Shown: positions 51,163 through 59,239 of the stretch, piece after piece
Layout: each line of letters starts with the position of its first letter
Numbering within the stretch: position 1 is the first letter of the stretch
NCBI RefSeq assembly: GCF_021398735.1
Contig: NZ_CP090349.1
Span: forward strand, 3,615,001 to 3,679,000
Reading direction: 5' to 3'
Origin: Methylobacterium oryzae
GTDB taxonomy: Bacteria; Pseudomonadota; Alphaproteobacteria; Rhizobiales; Beijerinckiaceae
Length of the DNA: 64,000 nt
Notes under the pieces: model-generated
Databases searched by the model: none
What the model was told of the DNA's origin: nothing
Seen by the model: the letters and a program-made list of their open reading frames with translations, nothing else
Translations under genes and position numbers: made by a program

Positions 51163-51453
51163 ATGCGGGCCTTGTCGGCGGAGGATGAACAGGCTGTCGA
51201 TCGGCTCACGCTGCGGCTTCTTCACGACGCCTATTGCGACCTCGCGGCGGTCCTGCGCGGTGCCCAGCCCCAGGCGGCCGCCGCGATCCTCGGCGTCATG
51301 GAGCAGCGCGTGACCGACGTCCTGACCCGGATCTGCCGGCAGGGTTCGGAAGGGGCGGCCTCGGTGGAGATCGCCGTCGCCGTCGGCGAGCGGATCGGGG
51401 AGATCATGGATCAGGCTCACGGACGGGACGTCGCCGGGACGCGAGCCGCTTGA
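51163..51453 (+). CDS. Hypothetical protein, 96 aa
   Basis: Helical protein (AVDRLTLRLLHDAYCDLAAVL and further helices) starting at an ATG with GAGGGG five bases upstream; a GTG at 51139 is possible. Not recognised. Confidence 0.5.
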   Translation: MRALSAEDEQAVDRLTLRLLHDAYCDLAAVLRGAQPQAAAAILGVMEQRVTDVLTRICRQGSEGAASVEIAVAVGERIGEIMDQAHGRDVAGTRAA

Positions 51454-51907: not shown

Positions 51908-53158
51908 TCATTGTGGCGCGCTGGTCTTGGGTAGCGAGCCGAGGCATGCCAGGAATATTTCCCGATCCCGTCTCGACACGCCTCGGGCGTCGAGAAATGC
52001 TGGGATGCGTGAGGTGGCTTCATGAACCTCATCGAGAATGGAGCTGGCTTCGGCAGCGGAGAGGCCAAATTTTGTATAGGCCGCGAATGCGGTGCTTGGG
52101 TTGCATTCACGGCTAATACCGGGAGCCGGGGCGCAGACATGCTTGGTGCCCGACGGATGCGGGACAACATCGAACACCGGTGAAAGCTTCCAGCCGGTTC
52201 CATCGTTGATGAAGGCGTGGTTGCGCAAATGATCGTCGGTGTTCCGGAGATAGGCATTGACCAGGAGCCTGCGAAACATCTCGCGTTCCGGCTCGTGCAC
52301 ACCGATGCGGCGCGCGGCTGCCGCGATGTCCAAATAGGTCTTGCTTGTCGCATAACCATAAGCTGGCTCGCCCAGCAAAGTGCCGGCGCTGAGGTAGGAC
52401 AAATACGCTCCAGCCGAGGATCGGTCAAAACGTGATACCAAGAGAACCGGCCTGTCGTTTACGACACGAAGCTCACGCTCCGGGACTCGAAGGCCTGCTG
52501 CCTCAGCGAAATCGAGGCAAACCGCTTCAGCCCTGGGATTGTCGAACCTGTCGTCCCACGCGGAAAATTTGGCTATCCATTCTTTTTCTGAAATCCGAAC
52601 ACGCGCCTTTGGTCGAGCGCCCCCAATATCCGAACTGTGGATGAGTAGCTGCGCGAGTTGGCGCGCCGACACTTCGCCTTCCTCGTATTTCTCTGCTGCC
52701 ATGAGCGCATCTTCGAGATCGTCCTCACTTTGAGCGCGCTCAAGCGCTGCTTCCATCCTGGGTGTCCACCTCTCGGGAGCCTCTGGCGTTGAGCCGAAGG
52801 CCAGATCGCCAGTGCGCGACAGGCCGCCCAGAGCCAGAAATTCCGGCATGCCGAGTTCCAGTTCTGGGAATACCTGTGTCAAGATTCCTTTACCCCAGCC
52901 GTCGGGGCCTGCATCGTGAAAGGCCAGATGGACCTCTCCCACAGTCACAGGCCGCCACTTGTTTCCGAGTGGCAGGCCGATGGGGTCAATCGGCTTGCGT
53001 CCTTCCGAAATTAGATAGTCAGAGCTATAGGCAAAACGACCGAGCCGCCGTGAAGAGCCACCTTCAAAGACCAAGAGGCCGATGGGCATATAGCCGCTCG
53101 GCCCTGACCGGAACACGTGCATTTCCTCGATGCGGTTGTACTTAGAGGTTCGCCACAT
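51908..53158 (-). CDS. HipA-family serine/threonine kinase, no adjacent antitoxin
   Basis: 416 aa. HipA kinases phosphorylate target proteins, in E. coli Glu-tRNA synthetase, and cause growth arrest. The substrate and P-loop region GGARPKA is at 179-185, the ATP-binding Lys in WIAKF at 197, the catalytic NTDDHLRN at 306-313 and the metal-binding Asp in LSPVFDVVP near 330. All are kept, so the kinase looks active. Typical hipA is preceded by hipB, a small HTH antitoxin. Here nothing upstream in 53159-53850 resembles one. An upstream ATG or MHVFRSG at residue 13 are alternative starts. Confidence 0.85.
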   Translation of the reverse strand: MWRTSKYNRIEEMHVFRSGPSGYMPIGLLVFEGGSSRRLGRFAYSSDYLISEGRKPIDPIGLPLGNKWRPVTVGEVHLAFHDAGPDGWGKGILTQVFPELELGMPEFLALGGLSRTGDLAFGSTPEAPERWTPRMEAALERAQSEDDLEDALMAAEKYEEGEVSARQLAQLLIHSSDIGGARPKARVRISEKEWIAKFSAWDDRFDNPRAEAVCLDFAEAAGLRVPERELRVVNDRPVLLVSRFDRSSAGAYLSYLSAGTLLGEPAYGYATSKTYLDIAAAARRIGVHEPEREMFRRLLVNAYLRNTDDHLRNHAFINDGTGWKLSPVFDVVPHPSGTKHVCAPAPGISRECNPSTAFAAYTKFGLSAAEASSILDEVHEATSRIPAFLDARGVSRRDREIFLACLGSLPKTSAPQ

Positions 53159-53849: not shown

Positions 53850-54740
53850 ATGACCATCGTCGTCCCCCACCCCGCCGCCCAGCGCGGCGGCCGACAGCGG
53901 TTATCTGCACGTGGGCAGCCTGGATCCGCGACCAGCAGCCGGATCACCGTCCCGCTCGGGAGCGCTGCGGCCCTCGGCTGCGGCCACGTCCAGCCCGCGA
54001 TCCCGCAGATCTGCGCACCCGAACTGATGGCTGCAGCCCAGGCCGCGCTCGACGGCGCGTTCCGGGCGACCTTCGTGCCCGATCCCCTGCTCGGACCAGG
54101 CTTGTCGCAACTCGGATCCGTGCTGGCCTCCATGGTCAAGAGGCATGGGTCGCTCATCGAGGCGGCCATCACGGACGTCCTGGAGCGAAGCGGGCGCTAC
54201 TTGGTGCTCCGCAACGTCGCGATGCCGATCACCGTTCCGACCCAGGAACTCGTGCGCGCCAGCAGCGTCGCCCAGCTCAACCAGACCTCGATCGAACTCG
54301 CGGGCGCCGTCGCGCAGTCGGTATTTCTCGACCTGATCGTCGTCGACCGGAAAGAGAGCCGAGCCATCATCGCGGAGGTCAAAAGAGGCTCCGGAAAAAA
54401 TGAGGCTAGGAAAATACACCAAGTCGAATGGGTGCTGCGGTGCGCGCAGGTCCAGGGCCGCTCGTTTCTGGCTTCACTCGGCTACGAGGTCGCGCAAATC
54501 CGCGCGGTGCTGATCGACGTCTATGGACGGGCCGGGTACGGCGATGAACTTACGGTGAGCGGACCGGCCATAGATCAGCTGTTCGCGACTCCAGTCTTGG
54601 CAGCACTCGAGACTGTGACGGCGGCGCTTCAAGCCCGATTGCGCGCGGCTGTGCCCGACCTTCTGACGATGGCGTTGGCGAGCCTCGCCGTTCCTGAGAA
54701 CGTCAAACGACCGCGCTCGCCCGGGCCGCTCGCGCCCTGA
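53850..54740 (+). CDS. Possible PD-(D/E)XK-fold nuclease-like protein
   Basis: 296 aa from the first ATG, though the first 50 residues are Arg/Pro-rich and a start near residue 60 is possible. A pattern typical of PD-(D/E)XK nucleases is visible: Glu104 in a first helix (GSLIEAAITDVL), Asp161 in a strand (VFLDLIVVD), then Glu176 and Lys178 in AIIAEVKRGSGK. The fold cuts or processes DNA or RNA. The C-terminal third is helical. It is the first of three plus-strand genes leading to an AAA+ ATPase, which suggests a nuclease/ATPase system. The pattern is short and needs a structural test. Confidence 0.6.
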   Translation: MTIVVPHPAAQRGGRQRLSARGQPGSATSSRITVPLGSAAALGCGHVQPAIPQICAPELMAAAQAALDGAFRATFVPDPLLGPGLSQLGSVLASMVKRHGSLIEAAITDVLERSGRYLVLRNVAMPITVPTQELVRASSVAQLNQTSIELAGAVAQSVFLDLIVVDRKESRAIIAEVKRGSGKNEARKIHQVEWVLRCAQVQGRSFLASLGYEVAQIRAVLIDVYGRAGYGDELTVSGPAIDQLFATPVLAALETVTAALQARLRAAVPDLLTMALASLAVPENVKRPRSPGPLAP

Positions 54741-54850
54741 CCGCACCACGCTGGCATCGGGTCGCGGCCGCGACCTGATGCGTCCATCTCGCTCTCCATC
54801 AATCCCGCACCGTGCGCCTGCGCGCCGTCGCGCTCTCCAGGTCTGTCTCA

Positions 54851-55294
54851 ATGACACTCGCTCGTGACCCCGATGCCCATCTCTCCGGCACAACTGACGC
54901 GGCCAAACTCTCGCTGCCGCTGTCCTGGTGGCGCGTCCTCGCCCCTGAGGCGCTCGATATGGCGGCGCAGTGCCGACTGTCCGCTGCCCTGAATGCCACG
55001 CAGCCCCTGCCGTCCCCCGACTGGTCCGCTGCTTGCCGAGGCGATTCGGCGGCTGCGATCCATATCGCACTCAACGTCCTCGCCGAGGCCATCGCCTTTC
55101 CTGGGCGCCTCGATCCGGCGATGTCGGCGATCTGCCTGTGCGCAGCGCGGGGTGACGGCTCTTGCATTGACCTGCTCGTGCACGTGCTCGGGCGGCGCGC
55201 TCGACGCCGGGCTGATCTCGAGGTGCTCTGCCTCGCCCACGCTTGGTGCTCCGCTCCGCGCCGCGGTGCCGACCGCGTCTGCGTCGCCCGCTGA
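54851..55294 (+). CDS. Unknown protein in nuclease/ATPase cluster
   Basis: 147 aa from the ATG at 54851. Several helical blocks (LSWWRVLAPEALDMAAQCRL, AAIHIALNVLAEAIAF) and six Cys in the second half, spread without a zinc-ribbon pattern. It ends 14 bases before the AAA+ ATPase start, with a GGGAGG site for that gene between. I cannot assign a family. Confidence 0.5.
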   Translation: MTLARDPDAHLSGTTDAAKLSLPLSWWRVLAPEALDMAAQCRLSAALNATQPLPSPDWSAACRGDSAAAIHIALNVLAEAIAFPGRLDPAMSAICLCAARGDGSCIDLLVHVLGRRARRRADLEVLCLAHAWCSAPRRGADRVCVAR

Positions 55295-55308
55295 AAGGGA
55301 GGAAGCCG

Positions 55309-57033
55309 ATGGCGATCTCTTCGACACCCCCTGCCCTGCAGATCGACCCCGAGGCGGCACGTCGCCTGCTCGAGCCGATGCTTCCGCGCCGCCTGCGCGC
55401 CTGCCTCGCTCAGGATCTGCGCGTGGCTTCTGCTTGCTCCGAACTCGCCCTCGAGATCACCACCCTCGCCCCGGATGCCGAGGCGCTGGTCTCCGCCTGG
55501 ATCGGGGCGGCCTCTTCGGAAGGCGGTTTGTGGCGTGACCGTCGATGGATAGCCCGACGATCCGCTCTGATCCGGTTCCTCGACGTGTGGGCAGTGGAGC
55601 ACGATCAGCCTGTGGCGCGGGCGTTGGCCGATGTCGCGATGCTGTTGTCCTGCGCCGGCGATGATCGCAGAGCTGCAGCGCGCTTGGCCCAGCCCCTGTG
55701 GCTGGAACGCGAAGCGGTTCTCGACCTCCGGCAAGGGGTTGCAGCGCTGGCCGAGGCGCAGACGCGCCTCACTATCGGACGCGTCGCTGGGCAGGGTGAC
55801 GATTCGGACGTTGCCGGCGCGACCGATCTCGCTGTCGCGCTGCAGGCAGCTTGGCACGACGCGCTCACGGACGCGCTTCTGACGTTCTCCGAGAAGACGA
55901 GCAGCGCCATCGCCGCTGCTGCCACCTTGGCCTGTGGCGCCGATGATGCCTTCGCCAGCGACGTGGCACTCGTCCACGCGCTCGTGCCCGTTGGGGAGGT
56001 CTTGACACGACCCGTCGCAGACAGCGCGGCGACGCGGGAGCGGCGCAGATGGAAGAAGATCGAGGCTCAGCTCGTCAAAAAAAGCGAGGCGCGCCGGCGC
56101 GAGAAGGCGGCGACCATCGACACCACGCCACAGCTGCCGGATGCCGTTGCCCCACCCGCGGAAGTGCCCAAAGGCCACGTCCTCGTCGTTCCGGCGATCC
56201 AGGAGACCGGGAGTGACCGCGGCAAATCCATTGCCCGCGGTTATGAGCACATCATCGGCAAGCCGCTCCCGCTTGTCGCCGTGCCTGATCTCGCAGCCGC
56301 GCGCACGCGGCTCGTCTTCGAATTTCCTTACGCTCAGGTTACGATCGACAGGCTTCTGGCCGACCTGATCGGACGTGAGTACACCACGTTCCGGCCGACC
56401 CTGCTGATCGGCCCGCCGGGAGCCGGCAAGACTCGCCTCATCGCCAGGATTGCCTTCCATCTCGGGCTGGGGTTGTGGCGAGTCGATGCGACGCGCGACG
56501 CCGGCGCATCGCTGGGTGGCCTCGACCGCCGTTGGGCGACATCGGAACCGGCGCATCCGATCATGGCGGTAGCTCGGACCGGTAGTGCTAACCCCCTGAT
56601 GCAGATCGATGAATTGGAGAAATCCGCGACTCGTTCGGATCACGGTAGGCTCTGGGATGCCCTGCTTTCGATGCTCGAACCGGAGACCGCCCGAACCTAC
56701 CAAGACCCTTGTTTCCAGACGGAGACTGATATCAGCCGTGTCTCGTGGCTGGCCACTGGCAATGAGATCGGCAACTTGCCCGCCCCTCTGCTTGATCGCC
56801 TGCGCGTGTTGGAAATGCCCGCCCCGAGCCACGCAGATCTCGATGCTCTGCTCGAACCGGTCCTGGCAGGAATCGCGGCCGACCACGAGCTCGCTCCCGC
56901 CTTCATTGCGCCGCTCGACGGCGAGGAGATCGCGTTGCTTCGACGGTCCTGGCGAGGCGGCTCGGTCAGGCGACTGATTCGCTTGGTCGAGGCTGTTGTC
57001 AATGCGCGTGAAACTCTCGCTGTGCGACAATAG
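55309..57033 (+). CDS. AAA+ ATPase with Lon-like ATPase module
   Basis: 574 aa. The N-terminal 330 residues are helical and not assigned. The AAA+ core has Walker A GPPGAGKT (368-375), Walker B LMQIDELEK (430-438), sensor-1 ATGNE (482-486) and an arginine-finger-like LLDRLRV near 497. The pattern QIDELEK followed by LLSMLEPE and LLDRLRV resembles the ATPase module of Lon. No protease domain follows, so it is an unfoldase or a remodelling motor. The ATG has GGGAGG upstream. The nuclease-like gene two genes upstream is a likely partner. Confidence 0.82.
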   Translation: MAISSTPPALQIDPEAARRLLEPMLPRRLRACLAQDLRVASACSELALEITTLAPDAEALVSAWIGAASSEGGLWRDRRWIARRSALIRFLDVWAVEHDQPVARALADVAMLLSCAGDDRRAAARLAQPLWLEREAVLDLRQGVAALAEAQTRLTIGRVAGQGDDSDVAGATDLAVALQAAWHDALTDALLTFSEKTSSAIAAAATLACGADDAFASDVALVHALVPVGEVLTRPVADSAATRERRRWKKIEAQLVKKSEARRREKAATIDTTPQLPDAVAPPAEVPKGHVLVVPAIQETGSDRGKSIARGYEHIIGKPLPLVAVPDLAAARTRLVFEFPYAQVTIDRLLADLIGREYTTFRPTLLIGPPGAGKTRLIARIAFHLGLGLWRVDATRDAGASLGGLDRRWATSEPAHPIMAVARTGSANPLMQIDELEKSATRSDHGRLWDALLSMLEPETARTYQDPCFQTETDISRVSWLATGNEIGNLPAPLLDRLRVLEMPAPSHADLDALLEPVLAGIAADHELAPAFIAPLDGEEIALLRRSWRGGSVRRLIRLVEAVVNARETLAVRQ

Positions 57034-57783
57034 ACTGACATGATTGATTGCTGGATAGGGTATATCGCTGTCCGGTTCTATTCTTGCACCCGTATGAGCC
57101 GTGACTCTGCAATGATCGTGCATTCTGTCGTGCTGAATAGGTTGAGAATAGCTTACACAATCATCGAATTTGTAGCTTTTAGATATTTCTGATGAATTTT
57201 CGTCAACATTAATGATTGCAACTGATATCGATATTTCTTCTTCAGATTCGTTTGAGCTCTCTCGGGTCTTCCCTTGAGACACTTTGTCCCTGACGTCGCC
57301 AGCCTGCCAAACTGCGCTGCCGGAAACACCGACCTTTACAGAAGTCTCACGCCACAAGGGATCGAATGCTCGGCGCGCACGGAACTGTTGATCCTCAGGT
57401 TCGAGCATGACTACGACGATAGGTTCTGGCCCATCACGGTGGAGGATCGCCGCACGGGCGGCTTCCCCGTGCTGTGCCAGGATCGAGGCGCGAATCGTGG
57501 ATGGCGACAGTTCGCCTCCCGTGCTGGCGTCGAGCGCCGGGCCGATATCGACAGTTGCGACCTTCATGTGGGCCGGCAATCGCTTGACGACGCCACTCAT
57601 GGTCACGGTCCGAGCCTCATGAACCCGTGCGTCGAGATCAGCGGCATATCCAATGGTGTCGCCAAGGATGGTGATCGAAGCTCGAGCGCCCTCTCCGCGT
57701 GGCCTCAGAATCCGGGAAGCCTCCTGCAACGCCGCTGCCTTCGCAACGAAGTAGCGCTTCAAATTGAAGGTTCCGGCAGCCAT
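57034..57783 (-). CDS. Hypothetical protein; frame lacks its own stop and runs antisense through the ATPase gene
   Basis: From the ATG at 57783 the first about 160 residues look like a folded protein (RYFVAKAAALQEASRILR, VTMSGVVKRLPAHMKVATVDIG, AILHRDGPEPIVVVMLEPE). The next 90 residues are AT-rich and low in order. No in-frame stop occurs until 54799, so the open frame spans 994 codons, most of it antisense to the AAA+ and nuclease-cluster genes. I believe the real 3' end was lost and give only the part outside the ATPase gene. It could be a truncated neighbour joined to foreign DNA. Confidence 0.4.
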
Positions 57784-58114: not shown

Positions 58115-59239
58115 ATGACACATTTCACATGTGTCCGTGTCGAACGTATCCGAGACCGCAGTGAGCTAGCCCGCATCGCGTCGCACGGTCTGCGGCTTGA
58201 TCCCAGCAGCAAGGCGCGTGTGGACCCGGCTCGAACGCCGCTCAACCGCTCGGGATCGGACTATGCGGAGAACCCGCTGGATCTCTCGAAGGCGCTCGAA
58301 GGCTTCCTCAAAGCAAACGGTGCCCGACTATACGGACGCGCGCCGATCGGCCTCCACGTCCTCGTGAGCGTCAGCCCCGGCTGGATCACTGAGGTCGGCG
58401 AATTGCACGATCCCCAAAATACGCGGAACGTTCAGTTGGCTCAACAAGCTGTGGACTGGGTCCAGCGAGCACTTGGCGGAGGGAGGCCCTGCATCGTGGC
58501 CTGGCGGCAGGATCTCGATGAGAAGGGCGGCGGGGTCGTGGACATCGTGGCCGCGCCGACCCGCGCTGCAAAGCTAAATCGGTTCAAAGATGATGTCACC
58601 ATCGTGTCGGTGACGGCCGCACTCGAAGCGCACCGTGCTCTACATCCAAAGGACCCAACCGCGTTCGGCGCGCTTCAGACTTCATGGGCAGCTCACGCCG
58701 CCAAGACTCTGGATCGCACGCTTCATCGCGGCACGCGCAAGGTCGATCAGCCCGCCGAGCACCTCGATCCAGAGCGTTACGGCCGGCTGGTAGATGCGGC
58801 TCGCGACGAGGCCAAGGCCATAGCGGCGCGAAATCTCGCCGAAGAGCGGGCAGTTCTGGATGCCCGCGAGCGACGGCTGGAAATCGCGGAGGAGAAGATC
58901 ACTCGGTTCGTTGCTGAGATGGCAGCCGAAAGAGAAGGGATCGTCGCGGAGGCCCGAGCTAAGGTTGATGACGCCCTCAACGCTATCGCGATCGGGATCG
59001 ATGCGCTGACCGATGGTAGGATCGTCGCCGTTGAGCATTGTGCAGAGAGCGGTGAGCTTCGCCTCTTTCCCGACATGAATCTTGATGCCGCCGAAAGATC
59101 CGCGTTGTGGGAGGCAATCACTCCGGGCCTGCCCGCTGGACTAATGACAGTCCTTGGATACATCCAAGCTGAGGCGGCTCGATCAGGAGAGGCCAGAAAT
59201 GGCTACCACGCTAGGCATCCTTCCCCGAGCCAATTCTGA
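58115..59239 (+). CDS. MobV (Pre/Mob)-like plasmid recombination protein without metal-site histidines
   Basis: 374 aa. The N-terminus (CVRVERIRDRSELARIASH, then RVDPARTPLNRSG) matches the start of MobV relaxases, which nick plasmid DNA for transfer. Their metal-binding motif His-x-Asp-Glu-x-x-Pro-His should lie near residue 135; here that region reads RQDLDEKGGG, keeping the Asp-Glu but no His. A long coiled coil follows (about residues 220-300). The protein may be a degenerate or diverged relative that keeps DNA binding only. It is on the edge of the second accessory block. Confidence 0.7.
   Translation: MTHFTCVRVERIRDRSELARIASHGLRLDPSSKARVDPARTPLNRSGSDYAENPLDLSKALEGFLKANGARLYGRAPIGLHVLVSVSPGWITEVGELHDPQNTRNVQLAQQAVDWVQRALGGGRPCIVAWRQDLDEKGGGVVDIVAAPTRAAKLNRFKDDVTIVSVTAALEAHRALHPKDPTAFGALQTSWAAHAAKTLDRTLHRGTRKVDQPAEHLDPERYGRLVDAARDEAKAIAARNLAEERAVLDARERRLEIAEEKITRFVAEMAAEREGIVAEARAKVDDALNAIAIGIDALTDGRIVAVEHCAESGELRLFPDMNLDAAERSALWEAITPGLPAGLMTVLGYIQAEAARSGEARNGYHARHPSPSQF

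Follow-up and report, generated by a model that had tools for sequence, protein, structure and literature searches.

The window analysed here is a stretch of 64,000 nucleotides from the Methylobacterium oryzae chromosome (C1:3615001-3679000; genome size 6.65 Mb). Among named proteins, the closest ones come from Methylobacterium. It contains three adjacent genes, referred to below as the trio, which encode a predicted nuclease (gene 1), a small helical protein that we call c1 (gene 2) and a Lon-type AAA+ ATPase (gene 3). Here we describe these genes, their relatives in other genomes and their possible role in defence. The preliminary description of this DNA had placed all three on the plus strand in one direction, and this was borne out by the open reading frames (ORFs), by a gene caller and by conservation (Table 1). 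The caller, which was written for this analysis and compared with the annotated record L107, is based on codon usage. It picked all three trio genes and not the long antisense ORF that overlaps two of them; at some other loci it misses genes, and tblastn was applied there instead. Compared with the closest trio examined (L195), the ratio of nonsynonymous to synonymous differences (pN/pS) was 0.13 for gene 1, 0.35 for gene 2 and 0.20 for gene 3. Since the genes are conserved and these values are low, as purifying selection predicts, we regard all three as coding. In the same comparison the synonymous difference was 0.27 in the ATPase gene, 0.10 in the nuclease gene and 0.09 in c1, so the ATPase part looks as if it had recombined relative to the other two. 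An alternative GTG start at 54812 would lengthen c1 to 160 residues. Gene 3 is preceded by aaagggaggaagccg, and the residue numbering of its product begins one codon upstream of 55309.

Table 1 Features of the trio and of its surroundings in the window.
Feature	Coordinates	Strand	Remark
Gene 1, predicted PD-(D/E)XK-fold nuclease gene (P0001)	53850..54740	+	296 aa
Codon of E104, core helix	54159..54161	+	19 E / 5 Q of 24 aligned sequences
Codon of D161, strand 154-166	54330..54332	+	invariant in 24 aligned sequences
Codons of E176-x-K178	54375..54383	+	K178 24/24; position 176: 18 E / 5 D / 1 S
Gene 2 (c1), small all-helical protein	54851..55294	+	147 aa from ATG
Gene 3, Lon-type AAA+ ATPase without protease domain (P0003)	55309..57033	+	574 aa
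Walker A GPPGAGKT (G369-T376)	56410..56433	+	G369, G372, G374, K375 in 25/25
Walker B D435-E436	56608..56613	+	D 24/25, E 25/25
Antisense ORF	54799..57783	-	994 aa; overlaps genes 2 and 3
Flank gene	51163..51453		present in 69/111 genus genomes
HipA-like kinase gene	51908..53158	-	full HipA_C, PF07804 E 1.6e-41
MobV-like gene	58115..59239	+	17.6 bits; cut-off 100

The E...D...E-x-K spacing that had been noticed in gene 1 could be assigned to residues E104, D161, E176 and K178. The preliminary description had further made the fold of the first protein a point on which its reading could fail, and modelling with AlphaFold2 (AF2) together with VIA-align predicts a PD-(D/E)XK nuclease fold. The model (mean predicted local distance difference test score, pLDDT, 80.5; residues 1-50 of low confidence) has a core of helix-strand-strand-strand-helix-strand; the D residue lies on strand 2 and the (E/D)-x-K motif on strand 3, which is the arrangement by which the superfamily is recognised. 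Almost all VIA-align rows for this model, so far as they can be named, are proteins that we take to be of the PD-(D/E)XK type. Neither the gene 1 model nor the gene 2 model had a Foldseek match in the Protein Data Bank (PDB) with an E value of 0.001 or lower. When solved structures were searched by sequence alone, gene 1 had no match even at E values as high as 5, and PHROGs contained no match to either gene.

The middle gene had been called novel and Cys-rich. The former stands: c1 could be placed in no known family, its matches to Sel1/TPR-like helical repeats are weak, and a sequence search of solved structures returned chance-level rows only. The latter describes the window copy (8 Cys in 147 residues) but not the c1 family, which has a mean of 2.6. 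The AF2 model consists of helices only, with a mean pLDDT of 88.2, and c1 family members run in the direction of the ATPase gene in 45 of 45 cases.

Gene 3 agrees with the earlier view that the trio ends in a Lon-type AAA+ ATPase without protease. It matches PF00004 above the cut-off (E 2e-10). Its match to the Lon model TIGR00763 has E 6e-21 and, at 74.6 bits, stays far below the cut-off of that model, 608. Its best solved relatives are Lon AAA modules, with PDB Lon chains at E values down to 5.5e-33. The protein has the Lon-type AAA+ module and lacks the proteolytic and N-terminal domains of Lon: Pfam searched at E up to 1 gave neither PF05362 (Lon protease) nor PF02190 (Lon N-terminal), and the C-terminus comes directly after the AAA lid. 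Outside the Walker motifs, all 25 sequences share N486, D497, R498 and R555. The host genome contains one further match at E 0.001, an 869-codon frame at C1:1153357, which is probably its true Lon.

We then checked the neighbourhood and found it conserved. The nuclease was present at 13 places in 12 of the 111 Methylobacterium genomes, and the ordered nuclease-c1-ATPase trio was kept at 10 of these 13 loci, the exceptions being G175, G367 and G369 (G numbers denote genomes, which overlap the named loci given below as L numbers, so that counts from the two sources are not additive). Across the order the nuclease was found in 18 of 397 genomes, accompanied by a Lon-type ATPase at three loci (G000, G084, G572) and by an FtsH-like AAA+ gene at eight; no partner ATPase was detected at six of the 18 loci, and G742 has a stop-broken copy together with c1 and no ATPase. 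An independent c1 search, in which the ATPase did not serve as anchor, gave 21 places in 16 of the 397 order genomes. Six lay within ~1.5 kb of a Lon-type ATPase gene, 14 within ~3.5 kb of an FtsH-like gene and the remaining one was G742, so that 20 of 21 c1 places adjoin one or the other gene type (within ~3.5 kb). Searches by tblastn with known c1 proteins confirmed 7 of the 14 FtsH-linked loci, and as a control the same tblastn matched neither ATPase type in 20 of 20 random 18-kb segments. The window site was also read in 20 genomes in which the flank gene listed in Table 1 is present: G371 has the trio there, G374 has c1 and the ATPase alone, and the rest carry different, unannotated gene sets. 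The distribution is sporadic, which we count in favour of a defence function. In IMG/VR, with the search patterns used, one contig each was found for the ATPase and for the nuclease. Nine phage records gave weak Lon-domain matches.

Both the nuclease and the motor are exchanged among the relatives. A gene map of 112 loci with the Lon-type ATPase (75 named loci and other loci), in which family names were assigned from single representatives, contains c1 at 43 loci, a metallophosphoesterase at 42, DUF6634 at 36, GIY-YIG at 20, PD-(D/E)XK and the PF10108 exonuclease at 14 each, and DUF2130 at 12. The gene immediately 5' of c1 (n=41) is PD-(D/E)XK in 12 cases, GIY-YIG or GIY-like in 11 and the c16 member of an HNH-c16 pair in 5. 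The GIY-YIG and HNH matches in Pfam are below the cut-off (E 0.011 and 0.03), though a GIY-YIG-like motif is visible by eye. The c16 family (L080 7246-7818, adjoining HNH genes) has phrog_4652 as a relative (E 6.8e-42), a group without a known function. On a quick tree of 38 ATPases the nuclease type requires 8 changes, against a minimum of 2 and an average of 15 in shuffles, none of 200 of which was as low; it therefore appears to be partly inherited yet repeatedly exchanged. The near-sister ATPases of L066 and L074, for example, accompany a PD-(D/E)XK and a GIY-YIG nuclease, respectively. As for the motor, the FtsH-like partner at L048 matches PF00004 and Peptidase_M41, the HEXXH motif is retained in 8 of the 12 FtsH-like ORFs read, and L182, L183 and L185 each have a second ORF downstream with a match to the FtsH-like set.

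Known defence genes stand beside a number of these relatives. They comprise the Zorya genes ZorA-ZorB-ZorC-ZorD at L096 (E 3.5e-87 to 0), BREX BrxC and PglX at L069 (E 0), SIR2-HerA at L099 (E 2e-127 and 9e-238), short prokaryotic Argonaute (pAgo) at L070, L077 and L191 (E 5.6e-144 to 1.8e-220), a pAgo-associated SIR2 protein at L109 (E 3.6e-169), Upx at L063 (E 3e-149), DrmA with a methyltransferase at L093 (DISARM-like; E 1.7e-79 and 1.5e-101), DrmD at L175 and a type III restriction enzyme at L182. At L114, genes annotated as CBASS phospholipase, DncV-like synthase, ThiF and Mov34 adjoin the nuclease. This amounts to 7 of the 75 named loci (L063, L069, L070, L077, L093, L096, L099) plus L109, L114, L175, L182 and L191. 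The 30 neighbour proteins behind it were scanned singly (13 had no match), and because they were picked by length or by eye, the list is neither complete nor unbiased. A broader sample took up to four of the nearest non-core genes of at least 100 aa per locus, or 150 of 281 flank genes from 70 of the 75 loci. Among the matches listed (25 of 45 families for the flanks, 23 of 23 for the control), defence models at E <1e-80 occurred in 5 of 150 flank genes and in 0 of 150 genes taken from random segments (Fisher p 0.03), a cut-off fixed after the lists had been inspected. At L114, a Methylobacterium radiotolerans plasmid locus (3270-17724), the nuclease lies between the CBASS-named genes and genes for TnsA, a Mu-type transposase, an ATP-binding protein and TniQ, and it also adjoins a 3'-5' exonuclease gene.

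Sequence and gene order make the trio a strong candidate antiviral system of a new kind. On balance, and with moderate confidence, we read it as one form of a modular Hyphomicrobiales operon that would most probably act against phages or other mobile DNA. The earlier phrase 'possible new nuclease/motor system' remains a fair description, given the conserved neighbourhood and the predicted nuclease fold, with the addition that the substrate of the motor is probably protein, not DNA. Lon-type and FtsH-type machines share protein unfolding, and because motors of these two types replace each other, we prefer protein remodelling to DNA translocation; translocation in the manner of McrB was ranked lower for the same exchange. 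In the mechanism that we propose, c1 would be an adaptor linking the AAA+ machine to a protein substrate or to the nuclease. The trigger would most likely be a foreign DNA-bound protein, or the loss of an inhibitory contact. The ATPase may then remodel a protein, thereby exposing DNA to the nuclease or releasing the nuclease, and the nuclease would be the effector that cuts DNA.

Several observations weigh against a defence role or against the integrity of the module. No recognised defence system was seen beside the trio in the window. Genomes with the closest flank gene include G374, in which c1 and the ATPase occur without any remnant of the nuclease, as well as G329 and G310, where the trio is missing. 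One of the ten genus trios (G344) has a stop within the nuclease, and the L114 nuclease carries S at position 176. In the order, 10 of the 18 nuclease loci are partnerless (6), decayed (G742) or weakly scored (3), the last being the FtsH-type loci G667, G705 and G728 with 44-49 bits. Seven of the 14 FtsH-linked c1 loci are supported by the profile search alone, and 5 of the 21 c1 matches contain stops; the FtsH-linked locus of G696 has stops and lies on the opposite strand. The flank comparison depends on five genes, of which PD-Lambda-3_B is untraced to a locus, and its controls were not strain-matched; the generic weak model mad3 matched more often in the control (5) than in the flanks (3). 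Finally, several copies adjoin conjugation, relaxase or transposon genes, and other mobile-element functions would fit too.

This last point leads to an alternative that we consider unlikely but the best of those remaining, namely that the genes form a DNA-processing or maintenance module of plasmids, integrative and conjugative elements or Tn7-like elements, serving transfer, stability or competition between elements and not host defence as such. Relatives of the ATPase (E 1e-25 or better) occur on 12 of 72,556 plasmid records, one copy adjoins virB/virD4-type genes of a conjugative plasmid, and a relaxase cluster (one member matching PF03432 at E 1.5e-5) is near five loci. The TnsA, Mu-type transposase and TniQ genes beside the L114 nuclease have counterparts near L193 and L087 as judged by gene cluster and length, and phage relatives are found for the partners c16 (phrog_4652), metallophosphoesterase (phrog_1649) and GIY-YIG (phrog_12629). 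However, at the loci mapped, none of the transfer or integration genes was seen to accompany the module consistently, the window copy is chromosomal, and several unrelated defence systems are among the neighbours.

Rather improbable, in our view, is an arrangement like a toxin-antitoxin system, in which c1 (or DUF6634 in relatives) would inhibit the nuclease and the AAA+ machine would remove c1, giving growth arrest under stress unrelated to phages. A toxic-type enzyme with a small partner and an unfoldase would suit it, as would the retained HEXXH motif and a divergent helix-turn-helix gene (XRE-like by eye) at several relatives. Yet c1 follows the unrelated nuclease folds PD-(D/E)XK, GIY-YIG and HNH-c16, which would be odd for a dedicated inhibitor, and it tracks the ATPase, not one nuclease. 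Equally little probability attaches to stress-induced DNA repair or mutagenesis, with the nuclease trimming damaged ends and the AAA+ ring stripping proteins from DNA: the partners do include PF10108 and DnaQ-like 3'-5' exonucleases and metallophosphoesterases, and one plasmid copy is 1.4 kb from an annotated damage-inducible mutagenesis protein, DNA polymerase Y and an error-prone polymerase, but that neighbourhood was seen in one of eight annotated records, the nuclease type is often exchanged and just 12 of the 111 genus genomes carry the nuclease.

Comparison with known systems gave no name for the trio. Such a system is named by none of the PADLOC, Pfam and NCBIfam models searched, and our searches of open papers turned up no description of it, subscription papers being outside the search. 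In PADLOC-DB 2.0.0 (2023), genes 1 and 2 had no match; gene 3 matched mad8 (E 6.5e-4), IetA (E 1.3e-3) and others more weakly, in the P-loop region except for one Cmr5 row, and none of the system-specific models is convincing for genes 1-3. By analogy, the trio would work most like McrBC or DUF4297-HerA. McrBC, a type IV restriction system, combines the AAA+ GTPase McrB with the endonuclease McrC, whereas the trio ATPase has its best solved relatives among Lon chains and is accompanied by an extra helical gene and an exchangeable nuclease. Searched at E values of up to 1, Pfam, NCBIfam and PADLOC gave no match to the trio under the name McrB or McrC. The sole McrB-like hint in Pfam is AAA_5, which we take to be the family holding McrB (18.2 bits against a cut-off of 22, E 0.0026).

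HerA is an ATPase of a different type from the Lon-type motor of the trio. DUF4297-HerA acts against phages with two enzymes, a nuclease and an ATPase, both of which become active when the complex forms (PMC11291478), and the abstract of that paper names no c1-like partner such as the trio has. DUF4297-HerA models are absent among the PADLOC matches of genes 1-3, and no further membership test was aimed at this system. The LonA protease has an AAA+ module clearly homologous to gene 3; it differs in that gene 3 lacks the peptidase and N-terminal domains, scores far below the equivalog cut-off and stands in an operon with a nuclease. BrxL of BREX, also termed 'Lon-like', differs in that gene 3 ends after the AAA lid, and the BrxL model is not among the gene 3 matches in PADLOC or NCBIfam at E up to 1. 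Lamassu would resemble the trio in combining a constant ATPase core with exchangeable effectors (LmuA); it differs in that its ATPase is of the SMC type, and LmuB is not among the PADLOC matches of gene 3.

More tentatively, and with somewhat less than even confidence, we suggest that the defence operon proposed here represents a new immune class, in which an AAA+ machine that unfolds protein, together with its dedicated helical adaptor, gates a nuclease module that can be exchanged. Its motors would be of Lon type, lacking the peptidase, or of FtsH type, in most cases with the peptidase motif kept. Its nucleases would be PD-(D/E)XK, GIY-YIG or HNH, to which a metallophosphoesterase, DUF6634, DUF2130 or an exonuclease may be added. 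If this is true, nucleases in immunity are under the control of AAA+ machines of the kind known from protein quality control, by way of an adaptor that stays constant while nuclease and motor are exchanged, and families now without a function (c1, DUF6634 and the PD-(D/E)XK family of the trio) would gain one. Natural swaps such as that between L066 and L074 offer ready comparisons of what the motor senses and how the nuclease acts.

The immediate flanks of the trio in the window had been described as a HipA gene, AT-rich DNA and a MobV-like gene, of the kind common in defence islands. The HipA-like gene is present, with no HipB-like gene called beside it, and the MobV match is far below its cut-off (Table 1). 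Members of the HipA cluster occur near the ATPase relatives L011 and L084 and not beside other trios, and the MobV-like gene was found in the window only among the mapped loci; both were rejected as parts of the system. The window flanks, which do not travel with the trio, are thus weak evidence for a defence island, and what survives of that claim are the defence genes beside relatives.

Three further arrangements were seen among the relatives of the ATPase. A variant operon at L069 (7655-11467), L068, L082 and L093 consists of a sigma-factor-like gene (by eye), a ParA/VirC1-like gene (the VirC1 match being below the cut-off), DUF6634 and the Lon-type ATPase. In L023, L024, L025 and their relatives a gene follows the Lon-type ATPase, and the L023 copy matches PF25735, the Mycobacterium phage L5 gene 82 family, at E 1.4e-24. 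L104 and L076 belong to one Bradyrhizobium erythrophlei genome and have identical upstream gene order and lengths, and in the former the ATPase ORF is cut down to 404 aa and a second piece lies downstream of it.

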